Positions 10,091-47,396 of a stretch of DNA of 64,000 bases are shown here, piece after piece. The stretch lies in NCBI RefSeq assembly GCF_008087665.1, contig NZ_CP042912.1, forward strand, positions 1,550,001 to 1,614,000, written 5' to 3'. The DNA comes from Mariniblastus fucicola (lineage in GTDB: Bacteria > Planctomycetota > Planctomycetia > Pirellulales > Pirellulaceae). The notes beneath the pieces are model-generated. The model did no database searches, had not been told where the DNA came from, and was given only the letters and a program-made list of their open reading frames with translations. Every line of letters starts with the position of its first letter. Within the stretch, counting starts at the first letter, position 1. Position numbers and translations under genes: made by a program.

Positions 10091-10109
10091 CTGCGGCTTC
10101 CAGCCGCAG
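10091..10109 (+). repeat. Hairpin repeat, 8-bp stem with TCC loop (copy A1)
   Basis: CTGCGGCT-TCC-AGCCGCAG, starting nine bases after the ispD stop codon and followed by ATTTGCAT. Same sequence recurs at 10345, 27912 and 27989. It could also act as the ispD transcript end. Confidence 0.8.
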
Positions 10110-10180
10110 TGATTTGCATGATGTGGCGATCGGTTGTATTGGCTTGTCGTCTTTGCCTTGGCTTGCTGGCTTCGTTGTAG

Positions 10181-10199
10181 CGACGGCTTCCAGCCGTCG
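10181..10199 (+). repeat. Hairpin repeat, 8-bp stem with TCC loop (copy A2)
   Basis: CGACGGCT-TCC-AGCCGTCG: the loop and inner stem match copy A1 but two outer pairs differ with matching changes on both arms, and the same ATTTGCAT flank follows. Confidence 0.8.
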
Positions 10200-10311
10200 T
10201 TATTTGCATTGCCACCGCTGACCATCTGCCTTCGCTGTTTCCTGTTTTGTTTGTGATCCGCAGCTTCAATGAATTCCAAAGAATACAATGCTGGCCCGCC
10301 GATCACCGCAA

Positions 10312-10324
10312 CGGCTGCAAGCCG
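10312..10324 (-). repeat. Short hairpin repeat (copy A3, inverted)
   Basis: CGGCT-GCA-AGCCG, a shorter 5-bp stem with a TGC loop on the minus strand, between the forward copies and the inverted copy at 10345. Confidence 0.5.
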
Positions 10325-10344
10325 CCGCTACGACATGCAGAATA

Positions 10345-10363
10345 CTGCGGCTGGAAGCCGCAG
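10345..10363 (-). repeat. Hairpin repeat, 8-bp stem (copy A4, inverted)
   Basis: Inverted copy of A1: on the minus strand CTGCGGCT-TCC-AGCCGCAG followed by GTATTCTGCATG, related to the ATTTGCAT flank of the forward copies. Confidence 0.8.
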
Positions 10364-10418
10364 CCACGAGACATGCAGCCACGAGACATGCAGCCACGGG
10401 AAATGTAGCCGCGAGCAT
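10360..10418. repeat. 15-bp direct tandem repeat, four units
   Basis: Unit GCAGCCACGAGACAT occurs twice exactly (10360-10374, 10375-10389), then once with two changes (10390-10404) and once degenerate (10405-10418). It is built from the flank of hairpin copy A4, as if that flank had been amplified. It ends 32 bases before the asparaginase stop codon. Confidence 0.8.
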
Positions 10419-10450
10419 ACACTCTCACAAAAAAACACCGCGACACGGAC

Positions 10451-11464
10451 CTAATACGTCCAGAAATAATCCTGGACTACACCAACATCATCCGTCTGCG
10501 TCAGCCCCAGTTGCAGCAACACTCGCGCCTTCGCCGGGTTCAATTGATCCGACACCACAAACCCCTTCGCGTCATCATCGATCTCCTGATTTCGCAACAC
10601 CGCACCGCTGCTGCTGCGGGTGCTTCGCACGATCACAACGCCCTGCTCTCTCGCGTCAAGCATCGCCTTGATCGCACGGTTGGACGCGTTTCCGTTACCA
10701 ACGCCCGCCAACACGATACCTCTGGCTCCCATCGCAACCGCAGCCCGAATCAAATCGCCGCTCATGTTCGAATGAGCAAACACAACCACAACCGGAGGCA
10801 ACTCTTCAATCGAACGAATGGAAAAAATGCTGTTCGTGGTGTGCCTCCGCTGCGGCTTGCGAAACATGCGAAACGTTCCGTAATGCAACGCGCCGAGCAA
10901 TCCCATGTTCGGCGACTCGAACGCCTGAACGGTCAACGTGTTGGTTTTGGTGACTTCTCGCGCTCCGTGAATCGAATCGTTGGCCACCACCAGGACTCCG
11001 TGCCCGATAGCTTTGGTCGACGCCGCCACGGCGACAGCGTTGTAAAGGTTCAAAGGCCCATCGGCGCTGAGTGCCGTTGCCGGGCGCATCGCGCCGGTCA
11101 GCACCACGGGCTTGTCACTATCGACGACCAGGTTCAGAAAGAACGCGGTCTCTTCCATCGTGTCGGTGCCGTGAGTGATGACCGCACCGGAAACGGAGTC
11201 GTCGGAGAGAGCTCTGTCCAGTTCTTTGGCCAGCTGCATCCACACGACATCGTTCATGTCCTGGCTGCCGATCGAAGCAATCTGAATCCCTGTCAAATTC
11301 GCGATGCGGCTTGCTTCGGGAACGGCTTGGATCAGAGTTTCCACGCCGACCTTGCCCGACTCATAGACTCCGTCGTCACCCGACGCTGCCGTTCCCGCAA
11401 TCGTGCCTCCGGTGGCGATGACGACAACGTTGGGAAGGTCGGCGTTATGATTTGAGTCGGGCAT
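10451..11464 (-). CDS. L-asparaginase family amidohydrolase
   Basis: 337 residues from the ATG at 11464, where the sequence begins to match the family; the frame stays open for 45 codons upstream but those residues look non-coding. It should hydrolyse asparagine to aspartate and ammonia. Both threonine motifs are present: VVVIATGGTIAG at the N-terminus and VITHGTDTMEET near residue 100, with VVLTGAMRP following and a C-terminal NRAIKAMLDA segment. No signal peptide is evident, so a cytoplasmic location is likely. No clear ribosome binding site precedes the chosen ATG. Gene stands alone, convergent with the repeat cluster. Confidence 0.9.
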   Translation of the reverse strand: MPDSNHNADLPNVVVIATGGTIAGTAASGDDGVYESGKVGVETLIQAVPEASRIANLTGIQIASIGSQDMNDVVWMQLAKELDRALSDDSVSGAVITHGTDTMEETAFFLNLVVDSDKPVVLTGAMRPATALSADGPLNLYNAVAVAASTKAIGHGVLVVANDSIHGAREVTKTNTLTVQAFESPNMGLLGALHYGTFRMFRKPQRRHTTNSIFSIRSIEELPPVVVVFAHSNMSGDLIRAAVAMGARGIVLAGVGNGNASNRAIKAMLDAREQGVVIVRSTRSSSGAVLRNQEIDDDAKGFVVSDQLNPAKARVLLQLGLTQTDDVGVVQDYFWTY

Positions 11465-11604
11465 ATTCGAACTGTGTCTGTTTTGGTGCGTAAAAATGGT
11501 AGCTCGGTGCTTTTCACGTCGGAAATGCAGCACGCAGTGGAGACCGCTGTGCTTCATACTTGAAATGCTCATGGACGCCACGTTGCCAGGGAGAATCATA
11601 CTTT

Positions 11605-12324
11605 ATGAACGAACCCACAACATCCTCGAAGCAATGGTTCGCGAGAGGAGCCGTCGGCGGCGTGATGATCTTTGCGGCTCTCAACGCGTTATCCTGGTTC
11701 TGGCTCTCCGACGCCTGGACGGATCTCTGCGGAGCAACCCAAAACGCCGGTGCGGACGCGATTGGGTTTCCTTTCGAGATTTGGCGGGAAGGCAATTACT
11801 ACGGCAGTGGCTGGATGATCAACTACCCGTGGCTGGGCGTGAACCTGATTCTAGCGATTGCGATTGCGTTTCTGTTTGGCTGGATCGGAAGCCGGTTTGC
11901 ATCGCGGCTGCAGCAGTTGGTCGAAGGCGCCGAATCGACGGAACTTCGAAAGTTGAATTTCACGTTTTCCGTGCGAGGCCTGTTTGTCACCACGACAATC
12001 GCAGCTTTCTTTCTTGGCATCACGCGAATGTTGGGAGTCTCGCCGTGGCTGTTGGGAGCCATCTACTTTGGCGGGCCGCTAGTGCTGATTCTGATCGCGA
12101 TGGCGCCGGTGGGTCTCCATTGGGAGCAGCGGATGATCATCGTGGTGGCGTTCGCGATTCTGATGTTGGTCGGCTGTGTGATGGTCGGCACGAAGATGGG
12201 GATGGAATTCGATCGCGTTTTGATCGGCGTGTTTATCTGCTGGGTTCCGCAAAGCGTTTTCGCCGCCTTCGCGGTTTTGATGTGGAGCATGTCACCCTTC
12301 GTCGCGGGTGAAGCGAAAGCCTGA
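11605..12324 (+). CDS. Multi-pass membrane protein of unknown function
   Basis: 239 residues from the ATG at 11605, which has AGGGAG twelve bases upstream; a start 45 bases earlier is possible but adds no conserved-looking sequence. About six hydrophobic segments are visible (near residues 14-30, 75-95, 130-150, 158-178, 190-208 and 218-238). A short polar region SRLQQLVEGAESTELRKLNF separates the second and third. I recognise no family. Its start lies 140 bases from the divergent asparaginase start. Confidence 0.7.
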   Translation: MNEPTTSSKQWFARGAVGGVMIFAALNALSWFWLSDAWTDLCGATQNAGADAIGFPFEIWREGNYYGSGWMINYPWLGVNLILAIAIAFLFGWIGSRFASRLQQLVEGAESTELRKLNFTFSVRGLFVTTTIAAFFLGITRMLGVSPWLLGAIYFGGPLVLILIAMAPVGLHWEQRMIIVVAFAILMLVGCVMVGTKMGMEFDRVLIGVFICWVPQSVFAAFAVLMWSMSPFVAGEAKA

Positions 12325-12349
12325 CGCGATGTGCGAGTCACCCAACTGA

Positions 12350-13798
12350 TCACTCGTGTGAGTTGACTTTCTTCATGGCCGCATCAAGGGCCGCCGTCGT
12401 TGCGGGCGATGGCTTTAAGCTGCCCGGCCGCTTTCCAGCCGCAATCGAATGAGGCGTCCAGCCGTGTTTGTTCTTCCGGTTCCAGACATTCGGATCCGCA
12501 CCCAACTGGGTCAACACCGTCACCGCCGAGGGATAATTCCGATACGCAGCGCCGTGCATCGCGGTCTCGCCATTGGCATCGACGACGTTGGGATCGTTGC
12601 CAAGCTTGACCAGCATCCGCATCGCTTCGTCGACTTCTTCTTCGGTGCCCGGTTCTTCGCCAACAGCCACCACGCCGACGCCGGCACAAGCCATCAGCGG
12701 CGTGCATCCATCAACATTGGGCTGGTTCGGATCCGCGCCAAGTTCCAATAGCAGCTTCATCAGCGGCACATCGGCAGTGCTGGCCGCGAACATGAAAGGA
12801 GTCATACCTTTCGCCGTCACCTTGTGTCTGTTGGGTTTGCCATTTGCGAGCTTCAGGTTTACGTCGGCTCCGGCTTTCACCATTCGGCGAACGAACTCGA
12901 CCGAGTTCACCGATCCTGTGATTCGAGGCGCCGGATCTCCTGCTGGATCGTCACCAAGTTTCGTTTTGCGGACCCAACTGATGGCATGCAACGGCCCATA
13001 GCCGCTGCGTTGATCGTTCGGGTCGGCACCCAGTTCCACCAGTCGCAGCGCCAATTCGAAATGGCCGCTTTCGATCGCCAACAGCAACGCCGACATGTTC
13101 TTTCGCGGGTTGCGACCGCCGGTGCGTTTAGTTTCCATCACCACGTTCGGGTCGACGCCGGCTTCCACCAATCGCTCAATGACTCGCGTTTTCCCCTGCC
13201 GAGCCGCGAATGCGAATGCGGTAAAGCCGGAGTTGGAAAGCGAATGGTCGATGTCAGCTTTGCCTTCGATCAACGCATCGACGGCAGGCACGTTTCCCGC
13301 CGCTGCGGCCCACATCAGCGCCGTCTGACCACGAGCCTCCTTCGCGTTCGGGTCGGCGCCAGCAGAAAGCAGCGCTTCCACGATCGCCGCGTTGCCGTTA
13401 CGAGCAGCCAGCATTAAAGGCGTTTCTTTGCCAAGCCGTTTGGATTCGACGTTGGCCTTGGCTTCAATCAAAAGCTCGACCACATCCTCAAATCCGCGTT
13501 CCGCCGCAAGACTCAGCGCCGTCACCGCGTACTCGGTCGCTGCGTCAACGTCGGCTTCATGCTCGATCAACAAGTGGACTGTGTCCGGAGCGTTGTGATA
13601 GGCCGCCCAGTGCAGCGCCGTCATGCCGTCGGGCTGAGACGATTCGACATCGCTGCCGGAAGTCAGTTGCTCTTTCAGTACAGCCCAATCTTGCTGTTCC
13701 GCCAGGTCCGCGACCGACGTTTCAGCCTGTGTAAAGGCGTTGGGGGCGAAAGCAATGCAAATCGCGACGACAAAAAGCTGCTTGAAAACTTTGATCAT
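12350..13798 (-). CDS. Secreted ankyrin-repeat protein
   Basis: 482 residues. A Sec signal peptide (residues 1-24, ending NAFTQA) is followed by about ten ankyrin repeats with the usual pattern G.TAL..AA..G....V..LL..GADPN (for example GQTALMWAAAAGNVPAVDALIEG). Ankyrin stacks bind other proteins; here the site would be periplasmic. The gene is third in an operon after the DUF1592 and DUF1552 genes, with only six bases to the DUF1552 stop. This trio recurs in planctomycetes. The partner is probably one of the two upstream products, but that is inference. Confidence 0.93.
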   Translation of the reverse strand: MIKVFKQLFVVAICIAFAPNAFTQAETSVADLAEQQDWAVLKEQLTSGSDVESSQPDGMTALHWAAYHNAPDTVHLLIEHEADVDAATEYAVTALSLAAERGFEDVVELLIEAKANVESKRLGKETPLMLAARNGNAAIVEALLSAGADPNAKEARGQTALMWAAAAGNVPAVDALIEGKADIDHSLSNSGFTAFAFAARQGKTRVIERLVEAGVDPNVVMETKRTGGRNPRKNMSALLLAIESGHFELALRLVELGADPNDQRSGYGPLHAISWVRKTKLGDDPAGDPAPRITGSVNSVEFVRRMVKAGADVNLKLANGKPNRHKVTAKGMTPFMFAASTADVPLMKLLLELGADPNQPNVDGCTPLMACAGVGVVAVGEEPGTEEEVDEAMRMLVKLGNDPNVVDANGETAMHGAAYRNYPSAVTVLTQLGADPNVWNRKNKHGWTPHSIAAGKRPGSLKPSPATTAALDAAMKKVNSHE

Positions 13799-13804
13799 GC
13801 CGAT

Positions 13805-15151
13805 CTACATCTCCACCGGATCGAACAGGTCTTCAACCGTTCCCGTGCTATCCGAAAATGTCTCCAGTGGCACGCCGACTTTGTTCAGCAACGTCAAATG
13901 CAAATTCGAAAGCGGCGTCGGATTCTCGAATCGAATGTGACGACCGCCCTTCAGTTTTCCAGCCGCTCCACCGGCGACCACGATCGGCAAATTCGAATGA
14001 TCGTGAGCGTCCGGGTCGCCCATGCCGCTGCCGTACAGGTACACCGAGTGGTCCAGCAACGTTCCGTCGCCTTCCGGAATTTCGTTCATGCGTTTGAGGA
14101 AATCAGCGAACAGCGAAACATGATAACGGTTGATCTTGGCGACCTTTTCCAGCTTCACCGGATCGTTGCCGTGATGCGTGACTGGATGGTGCGGATCGGA
14201 AACGCCGATCTCCGGATAGGTTCGCGTACTCGCTTCGCGAGCCAACTGGAAACTGACGACTCGTGTCACATCGCCCTGAAACGCAAGCAACTGTAAATCA
14301 AACATCAGCTTCGCATGGTCGCCGTACTGAGCCGGCACACCGACGGGCCGATCCAGATCCGGCAGCGGGTTGTCTTTCACGTTCCGCTGAGCCATCTGAA
14401 TGCGTCGCTCAACCTCGCGAATGTTTTCCATATAGGAATCAATCTTGTTGCGGTCCGAACTGCCGACCTGTCGCTTGATTCGCTTGATCTCCAACGTCAC
14501 CGAATCCAGCAGGCTGGAGCGTTTCTTCAATGCCGCCTGACGTTGCTCGGGCGTTCCACCTTCGCCAAACAGAGTCTCGAAAACGATGCGCGGATGAGCC
14601 TCCGACGGCAGCGGTTCGGTTGGCGAAGCCCAGGAAAGATTGTTTTGGTAAACACAGGCGTAACCGTTGTCGCACTGGCCGACCGTCGACAACAAGTCCA
14701 TCGAAAGTTCCAACGACGGAAGCTGCGAATTCTGGCCGATTCGTTTGGCAGCGATCTGATCCACCGTGATGCCGTTGTAGTAGTCCGTGCTTTCGGTTCG
14801 CTTCGCCCGAGCCGCACTTAAAAACGCCGAATTGGAAGTCGCATGCGAACCCGGATAGGCGTTCTGCAAATCCATGTTCGTCAAAACAGTGACTTGATCC
14901 TTGACCGCTTCCAATGGCGAAAGACTGAACGGAAGCTTGTCCAGCGTGTCGCCGTCAGGAATCCATTTCGCCGGATTGAAGCCCATCGGAACGTAAACGT
15001 AGCCGATACGTTTCAGATTCTCCTTCGCTGCAACGGTCGCGGCTTGCGCCGTCATCGCCGGAATCATCGAATCGAGCAACGGCAGCGCGACCGCCGCCCC
15101 GACGCCTCGCAACAGAGTTCGACGGGAGATACATTTTTTGCGGATGATCAT
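13805..15151 (-). CDS. DUF1552 domain protein with Tat-type signal
   Basis: 448 residues. The N-terminus has a twin-arginine signal (ISRRTLLRG followed by a hydrophobic stretch to about residue 37), so export is probably in folded form. The rest matches the DUF1552 family: YVPMGFNPAKW, LTNMDLQNAYPGSHATS, a central GSSDRNKIDSYMENIREVE helix and late segments FLKRMNEIPEGDGTLLDHS and GSGMGDPDAHDHSNLP, the latter like the metal-binding tail of the alkaline-phosphatase-like DUF1501/1552 group. Function has not been established. The start overlaps the stop of the DUF1592 gene (ATGA), indicating coupling. Confidence 0.93.
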   Translation of the reverse strand: MIIRKKCISRRTLLRGVGAAVALPLLDSMIPAMTAQAATVAAKENLKRIGYVYVPMGFNPAKWIPDGDTLDKLPFSLSPLEAVKDQVTVLTNMDLQNAYPGSHATSNSAFLSAARAKRTESTDYYNGITVDQIAAKRIGQNSQLPSLELSMDLLSTVGQCDNGYACVYQNNLSWASPTEPLPSEAHPRIVFETLFGEGGTPEQRQAALKKRSSLLDSVTLEIKRIKRQVGSSDRNKIDSYMENIREVERRIQMAQRNVKDNPLPDLDRPVGVPAQYGDHAKLMFDLQLLAFQGDVTRVVSFQLAREASTRTYPEIGVSDPHHPVTHHGNDPVKLEKVAKINRYHVSLFADFLKRMNEIPEGDGTLLDHSVYLYGSGMGDPDAHDHSNLPIVVAGGAAGKLKGGRHIRFENPTPLSNLHLTLLNKVGVPLETFSDSTGTVEDLFDPVEM

Positions 15152-17565
15152 TGGCCAGTCTCCGGGTTTTCAAAACGTTCATTCAATCGCAAACGAAACG
15201 GATCGCTCAACACGATTCCCGTCACGATGCTTGAGAAACGATAGTCATCTTTTGCCGCAGCACTTTCAATCGAACGAACCGCCGGACCGTCGAAGGGCTC
15301 TACGGCTCGGCCCAGTCCATACGTGATCAGCTTTTCCGTCAGCGTGCGGACAAACATCTGCGGACGCTCAAGGATCACGTCCTCAAGTTCTGCCGCTGAG
15401 CTGATCGGTTTTCCGGTCGGGAACATGCCTGCCGCGTCGACGTCCAGCGTCCCCTCAAAAGTTCTCCATCGACCAACCGCGTCGTAATTTTCCAGAGAAA
15501 AGCCAATCGGATCCATGCGATCATGACAGCTCGCACAGGCCGGGTCGGCTCGGTGCGCTGCGAGACGTTCGCGAAGCGTGCTGACCTCAAGCGTCGTGTT
15601 TTCTTTCAGGTTTGGAATGTTCGGCGGAGGCGGCGGTGCCGGAGTTCCCAGGATGTTTTCCAGAATCCAGTTGCCGCGAATCGTCGGCGAAGTCCGGGTC
15701 GCGTACGACGTCACCATCAAAATGCTTCCGTGTCGCAAAATCCCGCCGCGTCGACTGTCCGCCGGAAGTTGGACTTTGCGAAACTCGCTGCCGCGCACGT
15801 TCGGGATTCCGTAATGCGTTGCCAGCCGGTCATTCAGGTAAGTGTGTTCTGAGCGGATCAGCTTCAACACACTGCGATCGATTCGGACAATGTCGGCGAA
15901 CAGTTGTTCGGTCTCGAGACGAAACGACTGTCGCAGGTTGTCGTCGAAGTCCGGGAACAGCCGCACGTTGGGCGTGATCGATTCGAGGTTGCGAAGGTAA
16001 AGCCACTGCGAGGCGAAGTTTTCGACCAGTGATTTCGACTTGCCATCGGCCAACATGCGTTTGACTTGATCTCGCAGCACGTCCGGTTCGCTCAATCGGT
16101 TGTCCGTCGCAAGGCCTAACAGTTCCTCGTCCGGAATGCTGCTCCAGAGAAAGTAGGAAAGCCGCGATGCGAGTTCGATGTCTGAGATCTGTTGTGTTGG
16201 TTGGTCCCAGTCGCGATTTGCTTCGATGCGAAACAGGAAGTTCGGGTTCACCAACAACGACGACACCGCGGACTCGATACCTTTTTCAAAACCGAGGTCG
16301 GAACCGCCATCGGAGAATCCTTCATCGAAAAAACGCATTGGCGTTTCGAGGTCGTCCTCAGTAACCGGGCGGCGGAAAGCACGACGAGCAAGCCGCTTCA
16401 GAATCTTCTTCGCGTCGTCGCGAGTACTTTCGTTTCCGCGCGAAATGTCACCAAAGATCAAGCGGCGACTCTCGGTTTGTCCTGCTTCTCCATCATCAAA
16501 CGGACCCACGATCGACACCTGATAGATCGCCGGGGTGCGACGCGGGTGGCGGTGGCGATTGAAGTTCGCATCAAAAGGTTGCCGCTTTTCTTCTACCAGC
16601 GACGAAAACGTTTTGGGAAAAGTAATGCCCAGCGAATGTTTGCCGGCCTGGACTTCGATTCGGGTTTTCAGATGCGAATCCGAATGCGTGAAATCGCGAT
16701 TCTCCCAATTGCCCTCGTTCTTTGGCGGAACGACCTGAAAGCGATGCATCCGTTTACGATCCAACAACACGTCGATGTCATGTTTCCGATGCAGGCCTTC
16801 CACTTTCTCATCACGGTCGCGCGTCAGTTTCAATTCGATTTCGTACTGGCCGGACCTGGGAAAATGATGTTCAATCAGCGTGCCGCCGCGAGTTCCAAAC
16901 GGCAAGCCCGGAACGTGGTCTTCCTGCGAACGGTCCGCCGGAATGCGAATCGTCACGCCGCTGGGGCCATTGCCGACTCCACCAACCGCGGCTCTGGCGA
17001 TTTTCTGCGCTGCCGAAACGTATCTGTTCAGGCTCATCGGCGAAAGCTCTTCCACCGTGATGTTGTCGAACCCGTGACTCGATTCGTCTTTCGGCAAATA
17101 GTCCGCGGCGTTGATCTGAATGCCCAGCAGATCGCGAACAGAATTCTGATACTCCGTTCGTGTCAGGCGTCGGACCGATCCGATCCGTCCCGATCGCGGA
17201 TGCGTTTGGCTGCGTTTGTGCAAAATCTGCGACAGCGAGCCAGAAAACTTTTGGTATTCGTCTTCGGGGGGGCGATCGGCTGACGCTGGAGGCATCTCGC
17301 GTGCATCAACGCGGCGAAGAATCTTCTCCCAAGCGGCTGTATCAAGACGCTGCGCCGAAAATTGATCGGCCGAAAAAGACAACGGTTCGAGATCGAACGA
17401 GCCTTCCGGTTCTGCTCCGACATGGCAATCGATGCAATGGCTCTCAACAAAATCCTGAATGTCATCCAGGCGAAGTTGAAGTTCCTGAGCGTGCAGAAGT
17501 TCAGCTTGGGCAATGGTCGTGAAAACGAACAGAATGGCCAGTTCGGCAATCAGAGAGACGCGCAT
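15148..17565 (-). CDS. DUF1592-type multidomain c-heme protein
   Basis: 805 residues from the ATG at 17565, chosen because it begins the Sec signal peptide (MRVSLIAELAILFVFTTIAQA). Domains appear in the usual planctomycete order: a cytochrome-like segment with HCIDCH, DUF1587 (LTRTEYQNSVRDLLG), DUF1595 (ARRAFRRPVTEDDLE), DUF1592 (LSYFLWSSIPDEELL through THYGIP), DUF1588 with a second heme motif ACASCHDRMDPIGF, and DUF1585 at the C-terminus (TLTEKLITYGLGRAVE). Two CxxCH motifs predict covalent c-type heme and a periplasmic redox role. First gene of the operon with the DUF1552 and ankyrin genes. Substrate unknown. Confidence 0.94.
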   Translation of the reverse strand: MRVSLIAELAILFVFTTIAQAELLHAQELQLRLDDIQDFVESHCIDCHVGAEPEGSFDLEPLSFSADQFSAQRLDTAAWEKILRRVDAREMPPASADRPPEDEYQKFSGSLSQILHKRSQTHPRSGRIGSVRRLTRTEYQNSVRDLLGIQINAADYLPKDESSHGFDNITVEELSPMSLNRYVSAAQKIARAAVGGVGNGPSGVTIRIPADRSQEDHVPGLPFGTRGGTLIEHHFPRSGQYEIELKLTRDRDEKVEGLHRKHDIDVLLDRKRMHRFQVVPPKNEGNWENRDFTHSDSHLKTRIEVQAGKHSLGITFPKTFSSLVEEKRQPFDANFNRHRHPRRTPAIYQVSIVGPFDDGEAGQTESRRLIFGDISRGNESTRDDAKKILKRLARRAFRRPVTEDDLETPMRFFDEGFSDGGSDLGFEKGIESAVSSLLVNPNFLFRIEANRDWDQPTQQISDIELASRLSYFLWSSIPDEELLGLATDNRLSEPDVLRDQVKRMLADGKSKSLVENFASQWLYLRNLESITPNVRLFPDFDDNLRQSFRLETEQLFADIVRIDRSVLKLIRSEHTYLNDRLATHYGIPNVRGSEFRKVQLPADSRRGGILRHGSILMVTSYATRTSPTIRGNWILENILGTPAPPPPPNIPNLKENTTLEVSTLRERLAAHRADPACASCHDRMDPIGFSLENYDAVGRWRTFEGTLDVDAAGMFPTGKPISSAAELEDVILERPQMFVRTLTEKLITYGLGRAVEPFDGPAVRSIESAAAKDDYRFSSIVTGIVLSDPFRLRLNERFENPETGQ

Positions 17566-17623
17566 GGTGGTTCCGCGTTGGGACTGAGTTAGCCCCATTG
17601 TATCTCATGGCTGCACTGAAGAT

Positions 17624-22652: not shown

Positions 22653-22669
22653 AATAGTACCGTGGAACG

Positions 22670-22706
22670 GACTTGCAGTCTGCGGATACAAGTCTGGGAC
22701 AGACTT
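22670..22706. repeat. Two short hairpins with three-base loops (locus D)
   Basis: GACT-TGC-AGTC (22670-22680) and AAGTCTG-GGA-CAGACTT (22690-22706). On the minus strand the second has a TCC loop, like the hairpins at 10091 and 27912 but with a different stem. They sit in the 71-base gap between the convergent rsmH and esterase genes and may serve as a transcript end for both. Confidence 0.6.
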
Positions 22707-22723
22707 GCCTACTGAGCGCGAAT

Positions 22724-27859: not shown

Positions 27860-28054
27860 GGTGGCATAGGCTTCCAGCCTGTGATTGCATCCGTTTTTGC
27901 ACTCGTCGTGGCTGCGGCTTCCAGCCGCAGCATTCCGATGCCGCAGCATTTTCCGACTTGGCGGTGGTTGTTCAATCCCATGCAAATACTGCGGCTGGAA
28001 GCCGCAGCCACGAGAAACACAAAAACAAACACAGGCTGGAAGCCTATGCCACCT
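27860..28054. repeat. Nested inverted-repeat element made of four hairpins (locus C)
   Basis: Four hairpins of the same family in a symmetrical order. Outer pair: AGGCT-TCC-AGCCT at 27868-27880 and its inverted copy at 28033-28045, sharing about 24 bases including GGTGGCAT flanks. Inner pair: CTGCGGCT-TCC-AGCCGCAG at 27912-27930 and inverted at 27989-28007. The whole element could fold into one long structure. It fills the gap between the symporter stop codon (28060) and the aroB start (27832). No open frame is supported inside. Confidence 0.85.
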
Positions 28055-38858: not shown

Positions 38859-39183
38859 GACTTCTCCCGTCGAGATGCACCATAATTTGCTACTACGTTC
38901 GAACTCCGTTTTCGGGAGGACGCTTTATTGGGTCATCGCATTTGGGCCAGTCGGAAATTGATCTCAAAACGAACGAATCCCTGCAAAAGGCCTGTTCATA
39001 GCTTGGTAAATCGGTCACGTTAAGTCCTCGTTTTTTTCCGGTTATGCGGAAACAACCGTTCGCCTGCTCTTGCGGAAATCTTGCCGTTAATCGAAGATCC
39101 CGCACCAATAATCGTTGCTTCAAAGCCCACTTCTCAACCTTAGCGGCGCTCCAATCGCGCTACCAATTTTGAAAGCCAAAGCC
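38859..39183. other. Divergent intergenic region
   Basis: About 325 bases between the acidic secreted protein and pckA; should carry both promoters. A 76-codon frame on the minus strand has no start signal or domain and I do not call it. Confidence 0.4.
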
Positions 39184-40767: not shown

Positions 40768-40789
40768 CAATCGGCAAGTTAGCAATCGG
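40760..40789 (+). repeat. 15-bp tandem duplication across the pckA stop codon
   Basis: CAAGTTAGCAATCGG occurs twice in a row (40760-40774, 40775-40789). The TAG of pckA is in the first unit and an in-frame TAG recurs in the second, so the gene has two stop codons 15 bases apart. Confidence 0.85.
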
Positions 40790-40810
40790 GGCTGGTAGCG
40801 TACGCCGCGA

Positions 40811-40826
40811 AAGGCGATATCGCCTT
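40811..40826. terminator. 16-bp palindrome between convergent genes, possible terminator
   Basis: AAGGCGAT/ATCGCCTT in the 61-base gap between convergent pckA and the htrA-like gene. It could stop transcription from both sides, although no T-run follows. Confidence 0.45.
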
Positions 40827-40828
40827 CG

Positions 40829-42118
40829 TTATCGCTGATCAAGCAGTTTTTCGGCTTCGATCGAAATGCCAGATTGCATCATGGGGGCCTGACCGATCGT
40901 CACGGTCGCCAGGTGGGGCTCGCCGTTGCGAATCAGGGATACTTCAACGATGGAACCGGGCTGCGTTCGTTCGGTCAGCCGGTACAGGTTGTTGTAGTTG
41001 TGGACAGGGCTGTCGTTCCAAAGACGAACCACATCGTTTCGGCGCAGTCCAGCGTTATGAGCCGGAGAACCCGGTTCGACGCGGACCAGAAGAGCTCCTT
41101 TGAGGTCCGGCAAACCAAAGCGTTCCGCGTACTGATGGCTGACTTTGTAAGGTTGAACACCCAGAAAGCCTCGGACGACTTTGCCGCTCTCCAACAGTTG
41201 CTCGTAAACGAATCGGGCTGTCGCACTCGGCACGGCGAAGCTGATTCCCTGGAAAGTCTTGCCGTAGATCGATGCATTGATGCCGACCACATTTCCGTCC
41301 GAATCCACCAACGGCCCACCGCTGTTCCCGGGGTTAACCGCCGCATCGGTTTGCAGCAAATTTTTGACGCGACCGTTAGGATCTCCGATTCGATCCTTGG
41401 CGCTGATGATCCCCGAGGTCACCGTTTGTTCGTAGCGATACGGGCTTCCGACCGCCCATACGATCGAGCCGACTTCCAGTTCTTCGCTGTCGCCCCATTG
41501 AGCCGGAATCAATCCGTCTGCAGAGATCTTCAGAACCGCGATGTCGCTGATCTCGTCGCGGCCAACTTCGATGGCTTCATATTTGCGGCGGTCGTGTAGT
41601 TCAACCCAAATGCTTTCTGAGTTGTCGATCACGTGTGCGTTGGTGACGATGTAACCTTCTTTGTCCATGATGACGCCCGAGCCAAAGCCCTCCATCACGT
41701 CTGCCGAATCCCAGCCGCGACGAAAACCCAAACCGTCGTCTTCGCCAATCTTGCGAGTGCGGATGCTGACCACGCTGGGCTTCACTTTTTGAGCAACCAG
41801 CCTTGACGCCATGGAGACTTTTTTCAGCGGATGGCCTTCGAGGATCGTCACTGCGTTTTCGTATTCGGCACGCAGTTTCCCTTTCGTCGACGCGTATTGG
41901 TACTCTTCGACCAATCGCGGACCGACAAACCAGGCGGCCAGAAACAGAATCGATGCCATCAGGAAAAGCAAAGAGAAAAAAGAAGGTTCACCGCTGGCGA
42001 CAGGGGCAACTTGTGGAGAGCCCGATTCGGGAGTCTCACGTACTGATTCGGAATCCGGCACCACAACAGGCTGAACCGGTTCCTCGGGATCGTGCGTTGG
42101 TTGGTTGGCTACCGACAT
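40829..42118 (-). CDS. Membrane-anchored HtrA/DegS-like serine protease with PDZ domain
   Basis: 429 residues. A soluble acidic N-terminal tail (1-44) precedes one transmembrane helix (45-66), so the protease domain faces the periplasm. Catalytic triad motifs are VTNAHVI, SDIAVLKI and GNSGGPL, all intact. A PDZ domain follows (VVRGFLGVQPYKV ... GALLVRVEPGSPAHNAGLRRNDVVRLW). The anchored, single-PDZ design is that of DegS-type sensors rather than DegP. Differs from the protease at 8206 in having the long cytoplasmic tail. The small gene downstream of its start, 33 bases away on the same strand, encodes another membrane protein. Confidence 0.92.
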   Translation of the reverse strand: MSVANQPTHDPEEPVQPVVVPDSESVRETPESGSPQVAPVASGEPSFFSLLFLMASILFLAAWFVGPRLVEEYQYASTKGKLRAEYENAVTILEGHPLKKVSMASRLVAQKVKPSVVSIRTRKIGEDDGLGFRRGWDSADVMEGFGSGVIMDKEGYIVTNAHVIDNSESIWVELHDRRKYEAIEVGRDEISDIAVLKISADGLIPAQWGDSEELEVGSIVWAVGSPYRYEQTVTSGIISAKDRIGDPNGRVKNLLQTDAAVNPGNSGGPLVDSDGNVVGINASIYGKTFQGISFAVPSATARFVYEQLLESGKVVRGFLGVQPYKVSHQYAERFGLPDLKGALLVRVEPGSPAHNAGLRRNDVVRLWNDSPVHNYNNLYRLTERTQPGSIVEVSLIRNGEPHLATVTIGQAPMMQSGISIEAEKLLDQR

Positions 42119-42151
42119 GTTATTTATTGTAACGGGCGAGTTGCAATCGAC

Positions 42152-42370
42152 CTACGGAATCTCGTACGGAACCGGGAATTCAAAGTCGTCTTCAACCGGA
42201 AGAATGGGCAGGTCGCCGATGGAAGTTTCTGCGGCTAATGGCTCGTTAAATTCCCGAGTTGGCAGCGTCGATTCCACCTCTGGCGGCATGATGTATCGGG
42301 CCAAATACCCTAAAGCAAAACCTGCCAAAACGATGGACGCTCTCGACTGCCATTTTTTCCCTGATTTCAT
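42152..42370 (-). CDS. Small single-helix membrane protein of unknown function
   Basis: 72 residues. A basic N-terminus (MKSGKKWQSR) leads to one membrane helix (ASIVLAGFALGYLARYIM) and then an acidic, proline-rich tail. It lies 33 bases upstream of the membrane-anchored protease gene on the same strand, so it probably is the first cistron of that operon. Not recognised as any family. Confidence 0.65.
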   Translation of the reverse strand: MKSGKKWQSRASIVLAGFALGYLARYIMPPEVESTLPTREFNEPLAAETSIGDLPILPVEDDFEFPVPYEIP

Positions 42371-42456
42371 GCCTCAATTATACGCGAAAGACAGCATTCG
42401 GGCAGGATCAGATATGATGACATTGTTCATCACGATCTAATTGGCAAACTCTCACC

Positions 42457-44058
42457 GTGACGCCTGGAAAACAACCGAAACGCCGACATAAGCGACGCAG
42501 GTTCTTCGCCTGGTGGATGATGATATTGGTAATTTTGGCTGCAGCGCCGCAAAGTATTCTTGCCCAGGAAAAACCAGGTACCGACGCGGCGGACCCATTG
42601 TGGGCGACAGAGAACTTGCCCACTGGTGCCGTCTTTCGGTACGGAGCTATCGATCGAAATCCGGCCGCAATCGGAATTTTCGAGCTGAAGTTTTCTCCTG
42701 ATGGCAAACTGATCGCGGCCAGAGACCGACGGCAGAACATTCGAATCCTTGACATCGAGCTTCAGGAACGGATTGCGCTGCTGCCAACCCAAATCAGTCG
42801 GGATTTTCAGTTTTCTCCGGACAACAAATTTGTAGTGCTGGCGACTCAATCCGGGACGCAAATCTGGAGCTTGGCGGAGCAAGAAAAAGTTCGCGACGTT
42901 GGGCAGGCTGGCTATAAGCTGGCTTTCGCGTCGGACCCGCAACAGCTTGTCGTGGCATCCAAAGGAGGCGTCTATCGCAATCCGTGGCCGCTGCCGTCGA
43001 CCCCGGCGTTTGTCCAATCCGGTTTGGAAGGTCGGGCGTCGCTTCCGGCTGGAATTTCCCAAGACGGTCGGATGGTCGCGTTTCAGGACGGCGGCCGTTT
43101 GGAGATTTTGGACACGGTTTCCGGTGCGACAATTGATCCGCCTCGGAACGTCGTACCACGACAGGTCAGGTTTTCGCCCAACGGATACTTGATGGCGGAC
43201 ATGAAGTACGGCGAATCGAAACTCAAGATTTTTGACTTGAGGGATACCAAAAAATATCAATACGTGTTGAGCGACAAGCGTCGGATCGTGAACGCAGTGT
43301 TCTCGAACGATAGCCGATTTCTTTATACGAGCAACTACGACAACTCGATCGTCATCTGGGATATGGTGACCATGAAACAGGTTGAAAGGATCGAAGCGCA
43401 TGGCTCGCGAATTTACGCACTTGCAGCTTCTCCAAACAGGTTGCTAAGTCTGGCCAGCGGCGCTGCCGGTCCGACTGATCGATCCGTGATCCTGTGGGAT
43501 TTTCTGGATCGCATTTTTCCTCCGATTGAGTCTGTCGATGCGATTGATCTGGATGTCGCGTGGGTGGATTTGAAGAGTAACGATCCCAAAGTATCGCTGT
43601 CCGCGACGAATCAGTTTTTTCACGCATTGCAACACGAGCCTCGCGCGACGACCGGATTGATTGCGACAGGGCTGGGCCTTGAGTCAGTTGGTGACAACGA
43701 AGTTGCAAAGAAGCTGATCCGGGATTTAGATGCACGACAGTACAAGGTTCGCGAAAACGCGACGACCATGCTGACGTTGATGGTGGAGCAGGCTAGGCCG
43801 TTGTTGGAACGACGAGTCGCGGACAGTTCCCAGGAATCGAAATGGCGTATCCAAAAGATACTTCGCGTCGACAGAAAGAAACCGAGCATCTCGACTGGGG
43901 AAGGTCGGCGTGAGCACCGAATCGTTTTGGCTTTGGAGCTCGATGGAAGTGCGGACTCAATTAAGCTGTTGGAAGAAATCGTGGCAAAATCTTCAAATTT
44001 CAATCTGGTCGAGATTTCGAAGCAGGCAATTGATCGGCTTGCTCGTGCGGCAGGCTGA
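42457..44058 (+). CDS. Secreted WD40-like repeat protein with helical C-terminal domain
   Basis: 533 residues, starting at GTG (no ATG nearby fits). A basic N-terminus (KRRHKRRR) and hydrophobic segment (AWWMMILVILAAAP) form a signal peptide ending near ILAQE. Five or six WD40-like blades follow, with ELKFSPDGKLIAARDRRQNIRILD and AVFSNDSRFLYTSNYDNSIVIWD as clear examples. From about residue 365 comes a helical domain, LIRDLDARQYKVRENATTMLTLM ... LERRVADSS, of a type often attached to WD40 propellers in planctomycetes. Function unknown; probably a periplasmic scaffold. Confidence 0.88.
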   Translation: MTPGKQPKRRHKRRRFFAWWMMILVILAAAPQSILAQEKPGTDAADPLWATENLPTGAVFRYGAIDRNPAAIGIFELKFSPDGKLIAARDRRQNIRILDIELQERIALLPTQISRDFQFSPDNKFVVLATQSGTQIWSLAEQEKVRDVGQAGYKLAFASDPQQLVVASKGGVYRNPWPLPSTPAFVQSGLEGRASLPAGISQDGRMVAFQDGGRLEILDTVSGATIDPPRNVVPRQVRFSPNGYLMADMKYGESKLKIFDLRDTKKYQYVLSDKRRIVNAVFSNDSRFLYTSNYDNSIVIWDMVTMKQVERIEAHGSRIYALAASPNRLLSLASGAAGPTDRSVILWDFLDRIFPPIESVDAIDLDVAWVDLKSNDPKVSLSATNQFFHALQHEPRATTGLIATGLGLESVGDNEVAKKLIRDLDARQYKVRENATTMLTLMVEQARPLLERRVADSSQESKWRIQKILRVDRKKPSISTGEGRREHRIVLALELDGSADSIKLLEEIVAKSSNFNLVEISKQAIDRLARAAG

Positions 44059-44348
44059 TGTTCGGCTGAATCCGGAATCTGCGGCCGATTAGTCGCCCTA
44101 GAACGGTTGCAATGGTCTGCCTTGGTGGCCGCTGCAATGAATGAACGATTTATCACGGCCTGAGCGGGTTTACGCGAGTCACGTTTGTGCTTCGACGATA
44201 ATTCAAAAGCGAGCGAACCCGCCCTGTGACATTGTTAAAGTTGCGCGAATGCACGGGTTATATGTTGTGTTTCACCGCTTGCATGAACAAAATGGCGATT
44301 CCGCGGATTGCAACTTTTGATCCCCCCTATTTACCTTGGAGTTACTTC

Positions 44349-45008
44349 ATGAAGAAATTTATTTGGGCGTTGGCCCTCTGTTTTGCCTGTGCGAATTTTG
44401 CGCAAGCTGATTTAGTTATCAGCCAGTATGTTGAAACCGATTCTGGTACGACGCCAAAGGGCGTTGAGCTTTGGAATAGTGGTCCAGCTGCAATCGATTT
44501 TTCAGTAACCAGCTTGGATATTTTGAAAGGAACTAACGGCGGTGCACTTAGTTCAGATTTCGTCCTGAGTACGGGAGTAATGGCGGTCGGCGAGGTGATC
44601 GTTGTTGGAACTGCTGACATCGGTACCTACCTGACAGGCGAAGGCTTGGGCGCAGTTCAGTTCTTCGAAGAGTCGTTCACATTTAACGGTGACGATGCAT
44701 TGCAAATCCAGCTTGGTGGAGCTATTCAGGACACTTTTGGTGTTCCCGGTTCAGATCCAGGAACTTCATGGGATGGCTCCTCGGTTTCAACGCGTAATCA
44801 AAACATTGAGTTGAGAGTTGGAATTACGACAGGCGATACCGACGGATTTACGGATCCGAGTATCAGGTTTTCCACTGTTTCGACAGCCCCATCTGCTGCA
44901 GGCGGGTTGGCAGGATTCGGGCTCGTGGCAGCTGTTCCAGAACCCACAACTGCTGTCCTTTTCGGTCTTGCCGGACTTGGACTTTGCGTTGTTCGTCGTC
45001 GCTCATAA
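44349..45008 (+). CDS. PEP-CTERM protein with lamin-tail-like domain
   Basis: 219 residues from the ATG at 44349 (TTGGAG seven bases upstream). A signal peptide ends at FAQADL. The domain LVISQYVET followed by PKGVELWNSGPAAIDF matches the lamin-tail (LTD) fold, seen in secreted bacterial proteins. The C-terminus is a complete PEP-CTERM sorting signal: VPEPTTAVLFGLAGLGL then VVRRRS. Such proteins are cleaved and anchored or released by an exosortase, which is not in this window. A terminator follows 34 bases later. Confidence 0.92.
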   Translation: MKKFIWALALCFACANFAQADLVISQYVETDSGTTPKGVELWNSGPAAIDFSVTSLDILKGTNGGALSSDFVLSTGVMAVGEVIVVGTADIGTYLTGEGLGAVQFFEESFTFNGDDALQIQLGGAIQDTFGVPGSDPGTSWDGSSVSTRNQNIELRVGITTGDTDGFTDPSIRFSTVSTAPSAAGGLAGFGLVAAVPEPTTAVLFGLAGLGLCVVRRRS

Positions 45009-45041
45009 GCCACTCGCTGGTTTAAGCTAAAGAAACAAGGA

Positions 45042-45073
45042 GTCGCCTTTCATGCATGAAGGCGGCTTTTTTT
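45042..45073 (+). terminator. Rho-independent terminator of the PEP-CTERM gene
   Basis: GTCGCCTTTCAT/ATGAAGGCGGC stem (one unpaired T) followed by seven T residues, 34 bases after the stop codon. Confidence 0.85.
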
Positions 45074-45179
45074 GTGCGCTTGTAGTCGTAGCCGCACTCG
45101 TAAGAGTTTGTCGCTATATTCGGATCTGGTGAAAACCACAACCCGACGCGTAACAGGAAATTTCATTTCTGGCGGATCG

Positions 45180-45252
45180 AAATACAAGCACGACGCGCTA
45201 GCGCGTGAGTATGCGCGGTGGACTCACACGCTTGCGCTTCGTGCTTGTATTT
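45180..45252. repeat. Long imperfect inverted repeat, 31-base arms
   Basis: Left arm 45180-45210, loop 45211-45221, right arm 45222-45252. Arms begin AAATACAAGCACGA and match at 28 of 31 positions. Each arm also contains a smaller palindrome (CGCGCTAGCGCG on the left). It lies in the 465-base gap between the convergent PEP-CTERM and dus genes; the rest of the gap shows no gene. It looks like a REP- or MITE-like element. Confidence 0.85.
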
Positions 45253-45473
45253 GCTATCAAAACCTCGATGTTGTCGCATTGCTGGACCAAAGTCGCTTCG
45301 GTGAAATTTCCTGGTTAGCGAGGTGCAGCTGGTTCCTCGCTAACGCGTCGGGTTGCGAATTAAGCGACAAAGTCGTGAAAGTTCGGGCAGCCAAACTAAA
45401 CGCTCCCGAATTGTTGCCAATCCGGCTACCAAAGAGCCACATTGGTTCTGAACACTGAACACTGCTCTCTCGA

Positions 45474-46556
45474 TCACCCTGCGCAGTCGCTGCCCTTGGC
45501 TTTGTGCATCCGACCGTCAGGGTGAGTCCCGGGGCCGTCTTCCGAGTAGAACTTCTCGATCGCCGATTCCCAGTCAGCGCGATGTTTGACTTTTACGAAC
45601 GCACTGCGAACTTCGTTGTGCCGCGGGTGAAGGATCGAATACTTGATGCCGAACTTTCGCATCAACTGCCCTACCCTGCTCTCGCCGTACAGCGATTCGG
45701 CCAACCGATAGTGCTCCAGCAAAATCTCGCGCTGCTCGTGAAGCGTTGGAGGGTCCGGCATCGGCTTGCCATCAGCAATCGCGCGGGTTTGTTGAAAGAT
45801 CCATGGGTTGCCGATCGCTCCCCGGGCAACTGTCACGCCATCGACTCCGGTTTGAGCAATCATGTCCAGACAGTCCTGAGGCGTAAACAGATCACCTGAC
45901 CCCAGCAAAATCCTGTCGCCCAGATGCTGTTTGACCTCTTTGAGAAACTCCCAACGACTGGGGCCGACGTAGCGCTGTTTAACCGTCCGGCCGTGGACCG
46001 TGACTCCGGCGATGCCGATCGCAAACGCACCGTCCAGGATTTCGAAAAACTGATCGCGGCTCTGCTGTGAATCATCGATACCGCGTCGCATCTTCACGGT
46101 GACCGGAATTTCGTCAGGCACGTTTTCACGTGTTCGTTTGATGACCTCCAGAGCAACTTTCGGCTGGCTCAGGTGAAAACCGCCGCGGCAACGGCCCAGC
46201 ACTTTCTTGACCGGGCAGCCGAAATTAATGTCGATGACGTCGAAGCCGGCCTGCACGAGCTTCATGGCTCCGGCCGCAAACTGTTCGGGCTCGGCTCCCA
46301 TTAGCTGCCCGCCGACAGGATGTTCTTCGTCGGAAATGTGTAGAAAGTGGCTGGTGCGTTTACGCTCTTTTAGCTTCACCAGAAACTCGTCCAGCATCAC
46401 TTCGCAAACCGTGTAGGGCGCGCCGAGTCGTCTGGCGATCACACGCATCGGCCAATCGCTGTATCCTGAAAGGGCGGCTTGCACGACAGGAAAACCGATC
46501 TTCAGGTTGCCGATTTGCAGGGGTTTGAGCTCGGTTTTTGTTTGAGTCGTCGACAC
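45474..46556 (-). CDS. tRNA-dihydrouridine synthase
   Basis: 360 residues from the GTG at 46556; the frame is open to a GTG at 46682 (402 residues), and no ribosome binding site decides between them. The enzyme reduces uridine to dihydrouridine in tRNA with FMN and NADPH. The family blocks are present: VQAALSGYSDWPMRVIARRLGA, DINFGCPVKKVLGRCRGG with the active-site Cys in GCP, PVTVKMRRGIDDS, GVTVHGRTVKQRYVGPSRW, and LGSGDLFTPQDCLDMIAQTGVDGVTVARGAIGNPWIF. It resembles DusB more than DusA or DusC, but I would not fix the subfamily. Confidence 0.92.
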   Translation of the reverse strand: MSTTQTKTELKPLQIGNLKIGFPVVQAALSGYSDWPMRVIARRLGAPYTVCEVMLDEFLVKLKERKRTSHFLHISDEEHPVGGQLMGAEPEQFAAGAMKLVQAGFDVIDINFGCPVKKVLGRCRGGFHLSQPKVALEVIKRTRENVPDEIPVTVKMRRGIDDSQQSRDQFFEILDGAFAIGIAGVTVHGRTVKQRYVGPSRWEFLKEVKQHLGDRILLGSGDLFTPQDCLDMIAQTGVDGVTVARGAIGNPWIFQQTRAIADGKPMPDPPTLHEQREILLEHYRLAESLYGESRVGQLMRKFGIKYSILHPRHNEVRSAFVKVKHRADWESAIEKFYSEDGPGTHPDGRMHKAKGSDCAG

Positions 46557-46723
46557 GGGGCGGGGCACAGCCAAGTTGGCCTGTGTTGTGGGGAAAATAT
46601 CGGATAGAAACGGTGTAGCATCACGGTCGGATCGCGGTGAAACGCAAACGGACCAACATTGATGCAGTACGCCACAACTCACAGCAATGACATCTCATCG
46701 AGAGCAACGTTCGCAAATTATAA

Positions 46724-47227
46724 ATGCTCGACCAACTTTTTGGCATCCTGATTGACTATTGGCCATTTTGGGTCGGTGTCGCCGTGTTCGCAGCCATATT
46801 TCTGCTGCTGCGAATGTACTCGACACCCGCGCCGATGCCGTACTTCAAGCGACCGTCGCTGGTGACCAAAAACGAGCTTCGTTTCTACAAGTCGCTTCAC
46901 AAAGCCGTTTTGGACGATTTTGAAATCTTTGCGATGGTCCGGATCGCGGATTTGATCCGTGTCGAGAAAGGCTCCAATAACGGTAGGAAATGGCTGAACA
47001 AGATCCTTTCCAAGCACATTGACTTTGTCCTTTGCGACCCGGGATCGCTTGAAGCGGTTGTTTGCATCGAACTGGATGACGCGTCCCACAATCGGCCAGA
47101 CCGAATTGAGCGGGACAAGTTTGTGAACGATGCGTTCGACGCTGCCGATTTGCCACTGCTGCGAATTCCTGTTGAACCGTCCTATAATGCGCGTGAAGTC
47201 CGCAACCTGATCGATGCTGCGTTATAA
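46724..47227 (+). CDS. DUF2726 domain membrane protein
   Basis: 167 residues. An N-terminal membrane helix (9-28) is followed by a DUF2726 domain from about residue 45: KNELRFYKSLHKAVLDDFEIFAMVRIADLI, then DFVLCDPGSLEAVVCIELDDASHNRPDRIERDKFVNDAFDAADLPLLRI. The D...E.DD pattern resembles the PD-(D/E)xK nuclease fold, and DUF2726 is often attached to membrane segments or DNA-processing proteins. Activity has not been shown. Divergent from dus, 41 bases apart from the longer dus start. Confidence 0.85.
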   Translation: MLDQLFGILIDYWPFWVGVAVFAAIFLLLRMYSTPAPMPYFKRPSLVTKNELRFYKSLHKAVLDDFEIFAMVRIADLIRVEKGSNNGRKWLNKILSKHIDFVLCDPGSLEAVVCIELDDASHNRPDRIERDKFVNDAFDAADLPLLRIPVEPSYNAREVRNLIDAAL

Positions 47228-47235
47228 AAGTGGCT

Positions 47236-47396
47236 CAGCCTTTTCCAGGCTGCAACCCTTCAGTTCGTAGCAGATTAGTCTGTCTCAGGCTGAATCCCTT
47301 TAGTTCGTAGTAGTTCAGGCTGTCTCAGCCTGAATTGGTTTCGTACGCCAGTCATTCCCGGACTGACGATCAAAACCATCCAGCCACTTCTGGATG
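47236..47396 (+). repeat. Array of five small stem-loops (locus E)
   Basis: Five stem-loops in a row with different stems: CAGCCT-TTTCC-AGGCTG (47236-47252), AGTCTG-TCT-CAGGCT with one G-T pair (47277-47291), TTCAGGCTG-TCT-CAGCCTGAA (47314-47334), CAGTC/GACTG (47349-47365) and CATCCAG/CTGGATG (47377-47396). The first two are separated by a 25-base repeat (CTTCAGTTCGTAG and CTTTAGTTCGTAG, period 40). The array begins just after the DUF2726 gene and ends 26 bases before the next start codon. Confidence 0.75.

Follow-up and report, generated by a model that had tools for sequence, protein, structure and literature searches.

Tagged Hairpins in the Window

The stretch of DNA analyzed here, called the window, comprises 64 kb of the single 6.57-Mb contig of Mariniblastus fucicola (genome G000, C1:1550001-1614000), and the elements in question are short hairpins of the repetitive extragenic palindrome (REP) kind lying between its genes. 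A scan for every 8-bp stem with a 3-nt loop and at most one G-T pair gave 15 distinct hairpin sites. Nine of these (10091, 10181, 10345, 22689, 27865, 27912, 27989, 28030, and 47315) had GTRG 0–1 nt ahead of the stem, and in all nine the loop on the tagged strand was TCC or TCT. These were the sites at which an original prediction had placed one dispersed hairpin family with a fixed TCC-type loop; all of the perfect hairpins it named were found, and the loop held in the form TCY. A palindrome of 20–40 bp with a GTRG tag at one foot is the form of GTAG-superfamily REPs. The remaining six hairpins were untagged and mutually unrelated in sequence, which lends some support to reading the hairpins as chance or mutational palindromes. 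A looser scan for GTRG plus a hairpin returned 12 matches at 11 sites (matches 47307 and 47310 being one site), whereas 20 first-order Markov sequences averaged 1.25; the match at 45429 is probably chance.

The tagged elements formed four clusters. The first contained a class B element, GTGG + CTGCGGCT-TCC-AGCCGCAG (10087..10109, plus strand), a class C element, GTAG + CGACGGCT-TCC-AGCCGTCG followed by TTATTTGCAT (10177..10199, plus strand), a degenerate element with two wobble pairs from the looser scan, GTAG + CGGCGGCT-TGC-AGCCGTTG (10309..10331, minus strand), and a second class B copy with the same tag, stem, and loop as the first (10345..10367, minus strand). This last copy was inverted relative to those at 10087 and 10177, with the tags outside. 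The second cluster contained an element of family H, GTAG-G + CAAGTCTG-TCC-CAGACTTG (22689..22712, minus strand), found by the hairpin scans and by core search, and its probable degenerate inverted partner, GTGG-AA-CGGACT-TGC-AGTCTG (22662..22682, plus strand), which was recognized by eye and is unscored.

The third cluster, at 27.9 kb, was a palindromic A-B-B-A arrangement with the class A copies outermost: class A, GTGG + CATAGGCT-TCC-AGCCTGTG (27861..27883, plus strand); class B (27908..27930, plus strand); inverted class B followed by TATTTGCATG (27989..28011, minus strand); and inverted class A (28030..28052, minus strand), all from the hairpin scans. It lay between the genes for 3-dehydroquinate synthase and a sodium:solute symporter. 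The fourth cluster contained one perfect element, of family H, GTAG-T + TCAGGCTG-TCT-CAGCCTGA (47310..47333, plus strand; hairpin scans and core search), along with three degenerate plus-strand copies recognized by eye at 47230..47256 (GTGG, CAGCCT / AGGCTG), 47267..47295 (GTAG, AGTCTG-TCT-CAGGCT), and 47343..47371 (GTAC, CAGTC / GGACTG). The series of hairpins that had been proposed for 47236-47396 was thus reduced to these four; the sequence at 47376-47397, an 8-bp inverted repeat whose minus strand has a TTTT tail, has no relation to the REPs and may be an ordinary terminator. A flank said to be shared by several copies, ATTTGCAT, followed only three of them exactly (10091, 10181, and 28007 on the minus strand).

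The copies lay between open reading frames (ORFs), and seven of eight of these had Pfam domains (IspD, asparaginase, MraW, hydrolase, 3-dehydroquinate synthase, SSF symporter, and DUF2726); shorter, unsupported ORFs overlapped REP copies. The genes on either side were convergent at two of the four clusters and co-directional at the other two, and a simple scan found a T-rich tail at two elements (10182, plus strand; 28050, minus strand), as intrinsic terminators or 3′-end RNA stabilizers kept for the benefit of the host might show. Terminator-like matches in the three clusters that were scanned (the first, third, and fourth) numbered one (shuffle mean 0.7), one (1.1), and two (0.7; neither of them a REP described here); the largest excess over shuffles, at the last of these, was 1.6 standard deviations. 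T-runs, at two copies in the three scanned clusters, were at shuffle level, the copies occurred in both orientations, and no Rfam family matched in the window at gathering scores. The idea that the hairpins mark transcript ends, which had been offered along with the original prediction, therefore found no support; it also leaves unexplained the unpaired GTRG tag, the tags-outside pairs, and the linkage to REP-associated tyrosine transposase (RAYT) genes described below, and terminators or stabilizers are an improbable account of the hairpins. The REPs may have a side effect on RNA ends.

Genome-Wide Families, Compensation, and Pairing

The core GGCTTCCAGCC occurred in 159 copies in the genome (control, 1) and the family H core GKCTGTCYCAGMC (GTCTG-TCC-CAGAC) in 46 copies (control, 1). 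A genome with only a few copies would have told against a dispersed family, and more than 200 copies of the two cores were found. These counts, together with the fixed loop and tag, refute chance or mutational palindromes as an explanation, which is left with next to no probability. A single family for all copies was rejected: the copies divided into GGCT-core classes and a second family with its own GTCTG/GGCTG core, to which the elements at 22689 and 47315 belong.

The core patterns were used without the tag; counts of tags and of compensation come from the fetched part of the genome, which was chosen for such matches. There, GTRG stood ahead of 84 of 90 GGC-core copies and GTAG ahead of 29 of 31 family H copies. 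Compensation was tested with each distinct sequence entered once, on the outer pairs outside the search pattern, against 500 shuffles. Watson-Crick pairs filled 77 of 120 outer-pair cells in the GGC-core family (shuffle mean 35.8, maximum 49) and 86 of 112 in the GTCTG family, H (shuffle mean 54.1, maximum 65), so that in both families the pairing exceeded all 500 shuffles. The compensatory stem changes proposed originally were thereby borne out, and the alternative outcome, changes that are not compensatory, was not seen. The further proposal that structure and not sequence is kept stood only in its first half: of the 97 tagged elements fetched from this genome, 46 were an identical CATAGGCT-TCC-AGCCTGTG, T-G pair included, and sequence is therefore kept besides structure, which speaks against a pure structure reading.

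Class A (CATAGGCT/AGCCTGTG), with 78 exact tagged 23-mers, was the commonest class in the genome. The others were classes B, C, and E (CTGCGGCT, CGACGGCT, and TTGTGGCT), class D (GATAGGCT/AGCCTGTC), class F (CTGCGGCG-TCT-CGCCGCAG), and class G (CGGTGG-TCT-CCACCG, three copies in fetched DNA). Across the 46 fetched class A copies, conservation began one base ahead of the tag and faded about eight bases past the hairpin. The T-G at the third stem position was kept in most members of the class A clade as neighboring pairs varied, and it may be a recognized irregularity like the bulge of E. coli REPs.

Among the first 100 of the 159 GGC-core copies there were 32 neighbor pairs within 300 bp: 20 (+-), seven (++), five (--), and none (-+). 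Family H gave 14 pairs within 120 bp: seven (+-), four (++), three (--), and none (-+). Inverted pairs with the tags outside are the arrangement of REPINs (REP doublets forming hairpins) and of bacterial interspersed mosaic elements (BIMEs).

RAYT Genes of the Genome

The search for RAYT genes that the original prediction had called for found them, with repeats of the same kind at their flanks. A PF01797 (Y1_Tnp) search of the genome returned seven genes or fragments, R1–R7. R5 (3931192-3931893, minus strand) and R7 (5122264-5122935, minus strand) were above the PF01797 cut-off, were 49% identical, and had HVH and Y..NP motifs, with H143-V-H145 and Y203 common to both. A REP, TTGTGGCT-TCC-AGCCGCAA, lay directly past the stop codon of R5, on that side only; R7 had CTGCGGCG-TCT-CGCCGCAG REPs at both sides. 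R5 is assigned as cognate to the TG(C/T)GGCT class and R7 to the GGCG-TCT-CGCC class. Close relatives of R5 elsewhere (L058/L250 and L062) were flanked by TTGTGGCT or CTGTGGCT stems. At L043, the R7 open frame extended upstream through a REP (peptide RGCGVSPQ), and a REP can thus sit in an open frame.

R1–R4 and R6 were unsupported as RAYTs of these REPs. R1 and R2 (L039 and L040; R2 broken by a stop) were Y1 transposases flanked by AAAGGTGTCAGGGAC-type repeats, and their loci resemble the type of Di Nocera 2013 that is associated with terminal inverted repeats. R3 had GAAGCGCAAGCGAGTGG-type repeats at both sides and R6 one variant copy; the locus of these two Y1-transposase genes (L041, G000:C1:6454500-6466500) contained CAATACGAGCCCGAAGCGCAAGCGAGTGGTT-type repeats, apparently a separate family with its own enzyme. 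R4 was a 118-aa piece, R1-like by eye.

RAYT Loci Across the Order

Of the 396 genomes searched in the order, 97 had relatives of R5 and R7 at E<=1e-20, the window genome among them. Linkage was counted over 114 loci, 111 from the order search and three others (L059 and L060, among these, from outside the order); these counts are slightly inflated by the overlap between L090 and L101 and by long stretches of identity within the pairs L118/L136 and L132/L138. Tagged hairpins numbered 276 in the 80.0 kb within 350 bp of a RAYT gene vs. 67 in the 189.9 kb more than 500 bp away, a density 10-fold higher beside RAYT genes, and 65 of the 114 loci had at least one within 350 bp. A set of 131 loci gave an element in 69 and two or more similar stems in 55; the two REPs of a pair differed in 22 of 28 loci. 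RAYT tree distance and stem distance were correlated in this set (Mantel 0.258, reached in 0 of 2000 permutations), with a mean stem difference of 0.45 of 8 for near RAYTs and up to 5.1–5.3 for far ones. In the order, the stems follow RAYT phylogeny.

This last result runs contrary to a second rival, in which the hairpins are sites of a host DNA-binding protein unconnected with transposition. The conserved sequence of class A would suit such sites, and E. coli REPs bind IHF, DNA polymerase I, and gyrase, according to PMC6006769. The class A 23-mer was patchy among genomes, as expected for mobile DNA, with exact copies in 20 of the 396 genomes and in one of 11 other same-genus genomes of that sample. 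A host protein is accordingly given a very low probability. The general suggestion of protein-binding sites, made in the original prediction, fits, with the RAYT as the putative protein.

In 19 of the 131 loci (L065, L066, L069, L078, L079, L090, and others), the GTAG tag of the REP behind the RAYT gene supplied its TAG stop codon; TAG was the commonest RAYT stop, in 68 of 129 loci with the stop in view. A simple motif search found both the N-terminal motif and the HUH (histidine-hydrophobic-histidine) motif in 116 of 131 RAYTs, separated by a long segment (median 90 aa).

Class A, Its RAYT Clade, and the Weight of the Evidence

The four RAYTs that make up alignment A2 had CATAGGCT, GATAGGCT (two), or CACAGGCT stems at their flanks. 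Searched against the 396 genomes, A2 found 23 loci at E<=1e-55, spread over 22 genomes. Fifteen scored above 300 bits; 11 of these were outside the profile, and within 500 bp all 11 had TCY-looped (A/G)GCT stems; one of the 11 (L289) had been seen before the test. Of the eight loci below 300 bits, six had tagged stems of another kind, GACAGGCT in two cases, and the remaining two had no tagged stem. With the limit set at E<=1e-95, a choice made after the list was seen, at least 20 GTRGNNNNGGCTTCCAGCC sites occurred in 11 of the 14 genomes that had the clade vs. 17 of the 382 that lacked it; with E<=1e-55, the counts were 11 of 22 vs. 17 of 374. In most class-A-clade RAYTs (L171, L173, L177, and relatives), HHH (MPSHHHW) took the place of the HVH seen in others; the four class-A-clade RAYTs that were scanned were under the Pfam Y1_Tnp cut-off. 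Outside the sample of 11, the same-genus genomes G404, G405, and G409 had class A copies. Genome G373 contained 572 exact copies, some in tandem arrays; these arrays (L187-L189) had a period of 27–29 bp with array-specific spacers of 4–6 nt.

The window genome had 140 GTRGNNNNGGCTTCCAGCC sites. Near-family-H stems (GTAG-G-TCAGCCTG-TCC-CAGGCTGA) flanked RAYT L257 of the same-genus genome G400, and near-class-G stems (GACGGTGG-TCC-CCACCGTT) flanked RAYT L263 of G409; RAYTs of neither type were found in the window genome. Its search with A3 at E<=1e-10 found R5 and R7 only. Since no resident RAYT of matching clade was found for class A or for families G and H, several of this genome's classes appear to be orphaned or served in trans. 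The inner GGCT stem is common to class A and the class of R5.

Several observations weigh against assigning these hairpins to RAYTs. No tagged hairpin of this geometry lay within 350 bp in 49 of the 114 RAYT loci. A class-A-clade RAYT was not found in the window genome, where the best A2 match was R5, at 97 bits. Conversely, 17 genomes without the clade had at least 20 copies. R5 (67.3 bits) and R7 (63.5) did not reach the 80-bit cut-off of the NCBIfam RAYT model NF047646; among four class-A-clade relatives, L172 scored 88.8 and the other three 66.7–78.4. As for mobility as a unit, the G409 site syntenic to the 27.9-kb cluster had none of the four hairpins, in diverged intergenic DNA that gave no clean empty site, and the collinear flanking genes of this cluster were not both recovered in other same-genus genomes of the match list.

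Against these stand the copies, the tag, the compensation, the tags-outside pairs, the RAYT genes, the flanking of many RAYTs by REPs of their own class, and the co-divergence of RAYT and stem, all observed directly. The REP-like family of the original prediction is upheld, and the hairpins are very probably GTRG-tagged REPs, the recognition sites of RAYT (TnpAREP) HUH-tyrosine transposases, spread intergenically and often as REPINs or BIMEs. Single-stranded recognition, tyrosine cleavage, and mobilization are carried over from work on E. coli and Stenotrophomonas. On that analogy, the REP strand would fold when single-stranded; each RAYT would recognize REPs of its own class by foot tag, TCY loop, and stem; the RAYT tyrosine would cut near the folded REP; and the REPs would be mobilized by the RAYT, often as inverted pairs. 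Were each RAYT to read its own class, the stem would change with the enzyme and the geometry would stay constant.

A Candidate Recognition Code

The pairing of enzymes and stems was analyzed residue by residue. A stem label was given to 87 of 164 distinct RAYTs, which came from the searches of the order and of the genus and from three further loci. Identical RAYTs, RAYTs with X or shorter than 120–130 aa, hairpin elements with G as first loop base, and loci without two similar stems were left out; identical proteins were counted once, as for L058, which is the same sequence as L250 of the same-genus genome G409 (3624 bp identical). Pair 7 is the second pair below the loop, with the base given for the 5′ arm. 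An exploratory run with five features gave the first sign of the code.

S165 of R5, in the segment HSIKSFSANKIN past the HUH motif, predicted stem pair 7. The base was C with S in 26 of 27 RAYTs, with G in 10 of 11, with T in two of three, with Q in one of one, and with A in none of one. With R, it was T in 24, A in six, G in two, and C in one; with H, it was G in six of seven; and with K, A in three of four. A rule that pairs a small residue with C and R, K, or H with another base held in 82 of 87 RAYTs. When label evolution was simulated on the RAYT tree, column S165, the top of 181 for pair 7 (0.374), was reached by the all-column maximum in one of 200 simulations, and the same-column simulated maximum was 0.189; eight stem positions were tested.

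The rule was fixed before a held-out search of 343 genomes across the phylum, in which only loci from outside the order were fetched. The 89 loci gave 88 RAYTs, 77 of them new and distinct; 39 had an element, 33 were labeled, and 32 had the residue. The fixed rule was followed by 29 of 31 (small residue with C, 26 of 28; R with another base, three of three: T, A, and G); the small-residue cases were mostly of one motif type (HSWKSF) and are therefore not independent. A single RAYT with L, outside the rule, paired with T. The finer form, R with T or A, held in two of three, and H and K were absent from the held-out set.

Changes on branches were counted on a tree built without column 165, with L taken as non-small. 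Residue class and base class each changed 10 times; six of the changes coincided in branch and direction, vs. 0.6 expected and at most four in 5000 draws. Among nine independent contrasting pairs, seven were as predicted (one being the L pair), none was opposed, and two had no base-class change. All 119 RAYTs together gave seven exceptions. Three of these were among the 86 RAYTs with 3-nt loops; the other four had 2-nt loops, which leave the register uncertain.

With all 119 RAYTs and eleven features tested, pair 7 again picked S165 (0 of 150 simulations) and pair 6 picked H161, four residues earlier (1 of 150 over all columns). H occurred with G at pair 6 in 44 RAYTs, and G also occurred with R (8) and Gly (7); in the held-out set, H was found with G in 19 and with C in two. 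No RAYT column rose above the tree simulation for the tag (GTAG/GTGG), the offset, or the loop length (P 0.28, 0.31, and 0.07), nor for stem pairs 1–3, 5, and 8 (P 0.07–0.31); pair 4 was marginal (P 0.04).

A profile of nine RAYTs matched E. coli TnpAREP 4er8 at E 2e-7, the sole RAYT among its PDB matches. In the printed alignment, where a one-residue helix shift is possible, S165 falls on K82 and H161 on R78, and the same count puts W94, Q95, E100, H101, and R104 where PMC6006769 names them. K82, in helix alpha-3, is described as specifically contacting the stem base C27 (Corneloup et al., 2021; PMC8266576), in a paper that also speculates that this helix serves short REPs. The alignment of S165 to K82 therefore sets the code in the place of a known contact; it is still a correlation. 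Specificity of these RAYTs is likely set by one helix in which residue 165 of R5 reads pair 7 and H161 reads the next pair down. At pair 7 the proposed code, considered likely, is C-G for Ser, Gly, and Thr, mostly T-A or A-T for Arg, G-C for His, and A-T for Lys; at pair 6, His (H161, aligned to R78) goes with G, again as a likely assignment.

Relation to Known Systems and Implications

REP/RAYT systems are already well known, that of Rhodopirellula baltica included. In their account of GTAG families in Planctomycetes, Di Nocera et al. (2013; PMC3733652) report different families of REPs in R. baltica and, flanked by repeats, many tyrosine transposases. Compared by description, the GTAG-superfamily REPs of that account share with the REPs here the GTRG tag, a 6–9-bp stem, a short loop, compensatory subfamilies, dimers, a RAYT at the flanks, and a planctomycete host. 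The Stenotrophomonas maltophilia REPtron Sm group 3, as presented in PMC8266576, is likewise 23 nt long with GTAG, an 8-bp stem, and a 3-nt loop whose first base is decisive; its loop is GCT, in contrast to TCY in Mariniblastus, it is cut at a CT site, and the RAYTs of this order differ in their long segment from N-terminal motif to HUH. E. coli TnpAREP likewise has the HUH and Tyr core (the 4er8 profile match) and pair ends that may differ, whereas E. coli REPs, according to PMC8266576, have a stem bulge and a loop without specific reading. By the table of Quentin et al. (2018; PMC6006769) only, TnpAREP subclass 2.7 is alike in its NHVH and YI..NP motifs, 213 aa, and canonical GT[AG]G REPs, and unlike in being reported from Cyanobacteria and few other phyla.

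No residue-level code was announced in the titles and abstract openings of the papers listed on RAYT, REPIN, and TnpAREP specificity, a coverage with subscription papers mostly outside it, which suggests that the residue code is a new prediction. About 120 labeled RAYT/REP pairs of one short geometry, from planctomycetes and relatives, were enough to link residues with base pairs, and the analysis names two of each. The genome that prompted it abounds in REPs for which no RAYT of the matching clade was found there. These results bear on how RAYTs choose their REPs and how new REP classes arise: if the code is true, one substitution could switch a RAYT to a new REP class, and such a switch would explain the diversity of stems at a fixed tag and loop.

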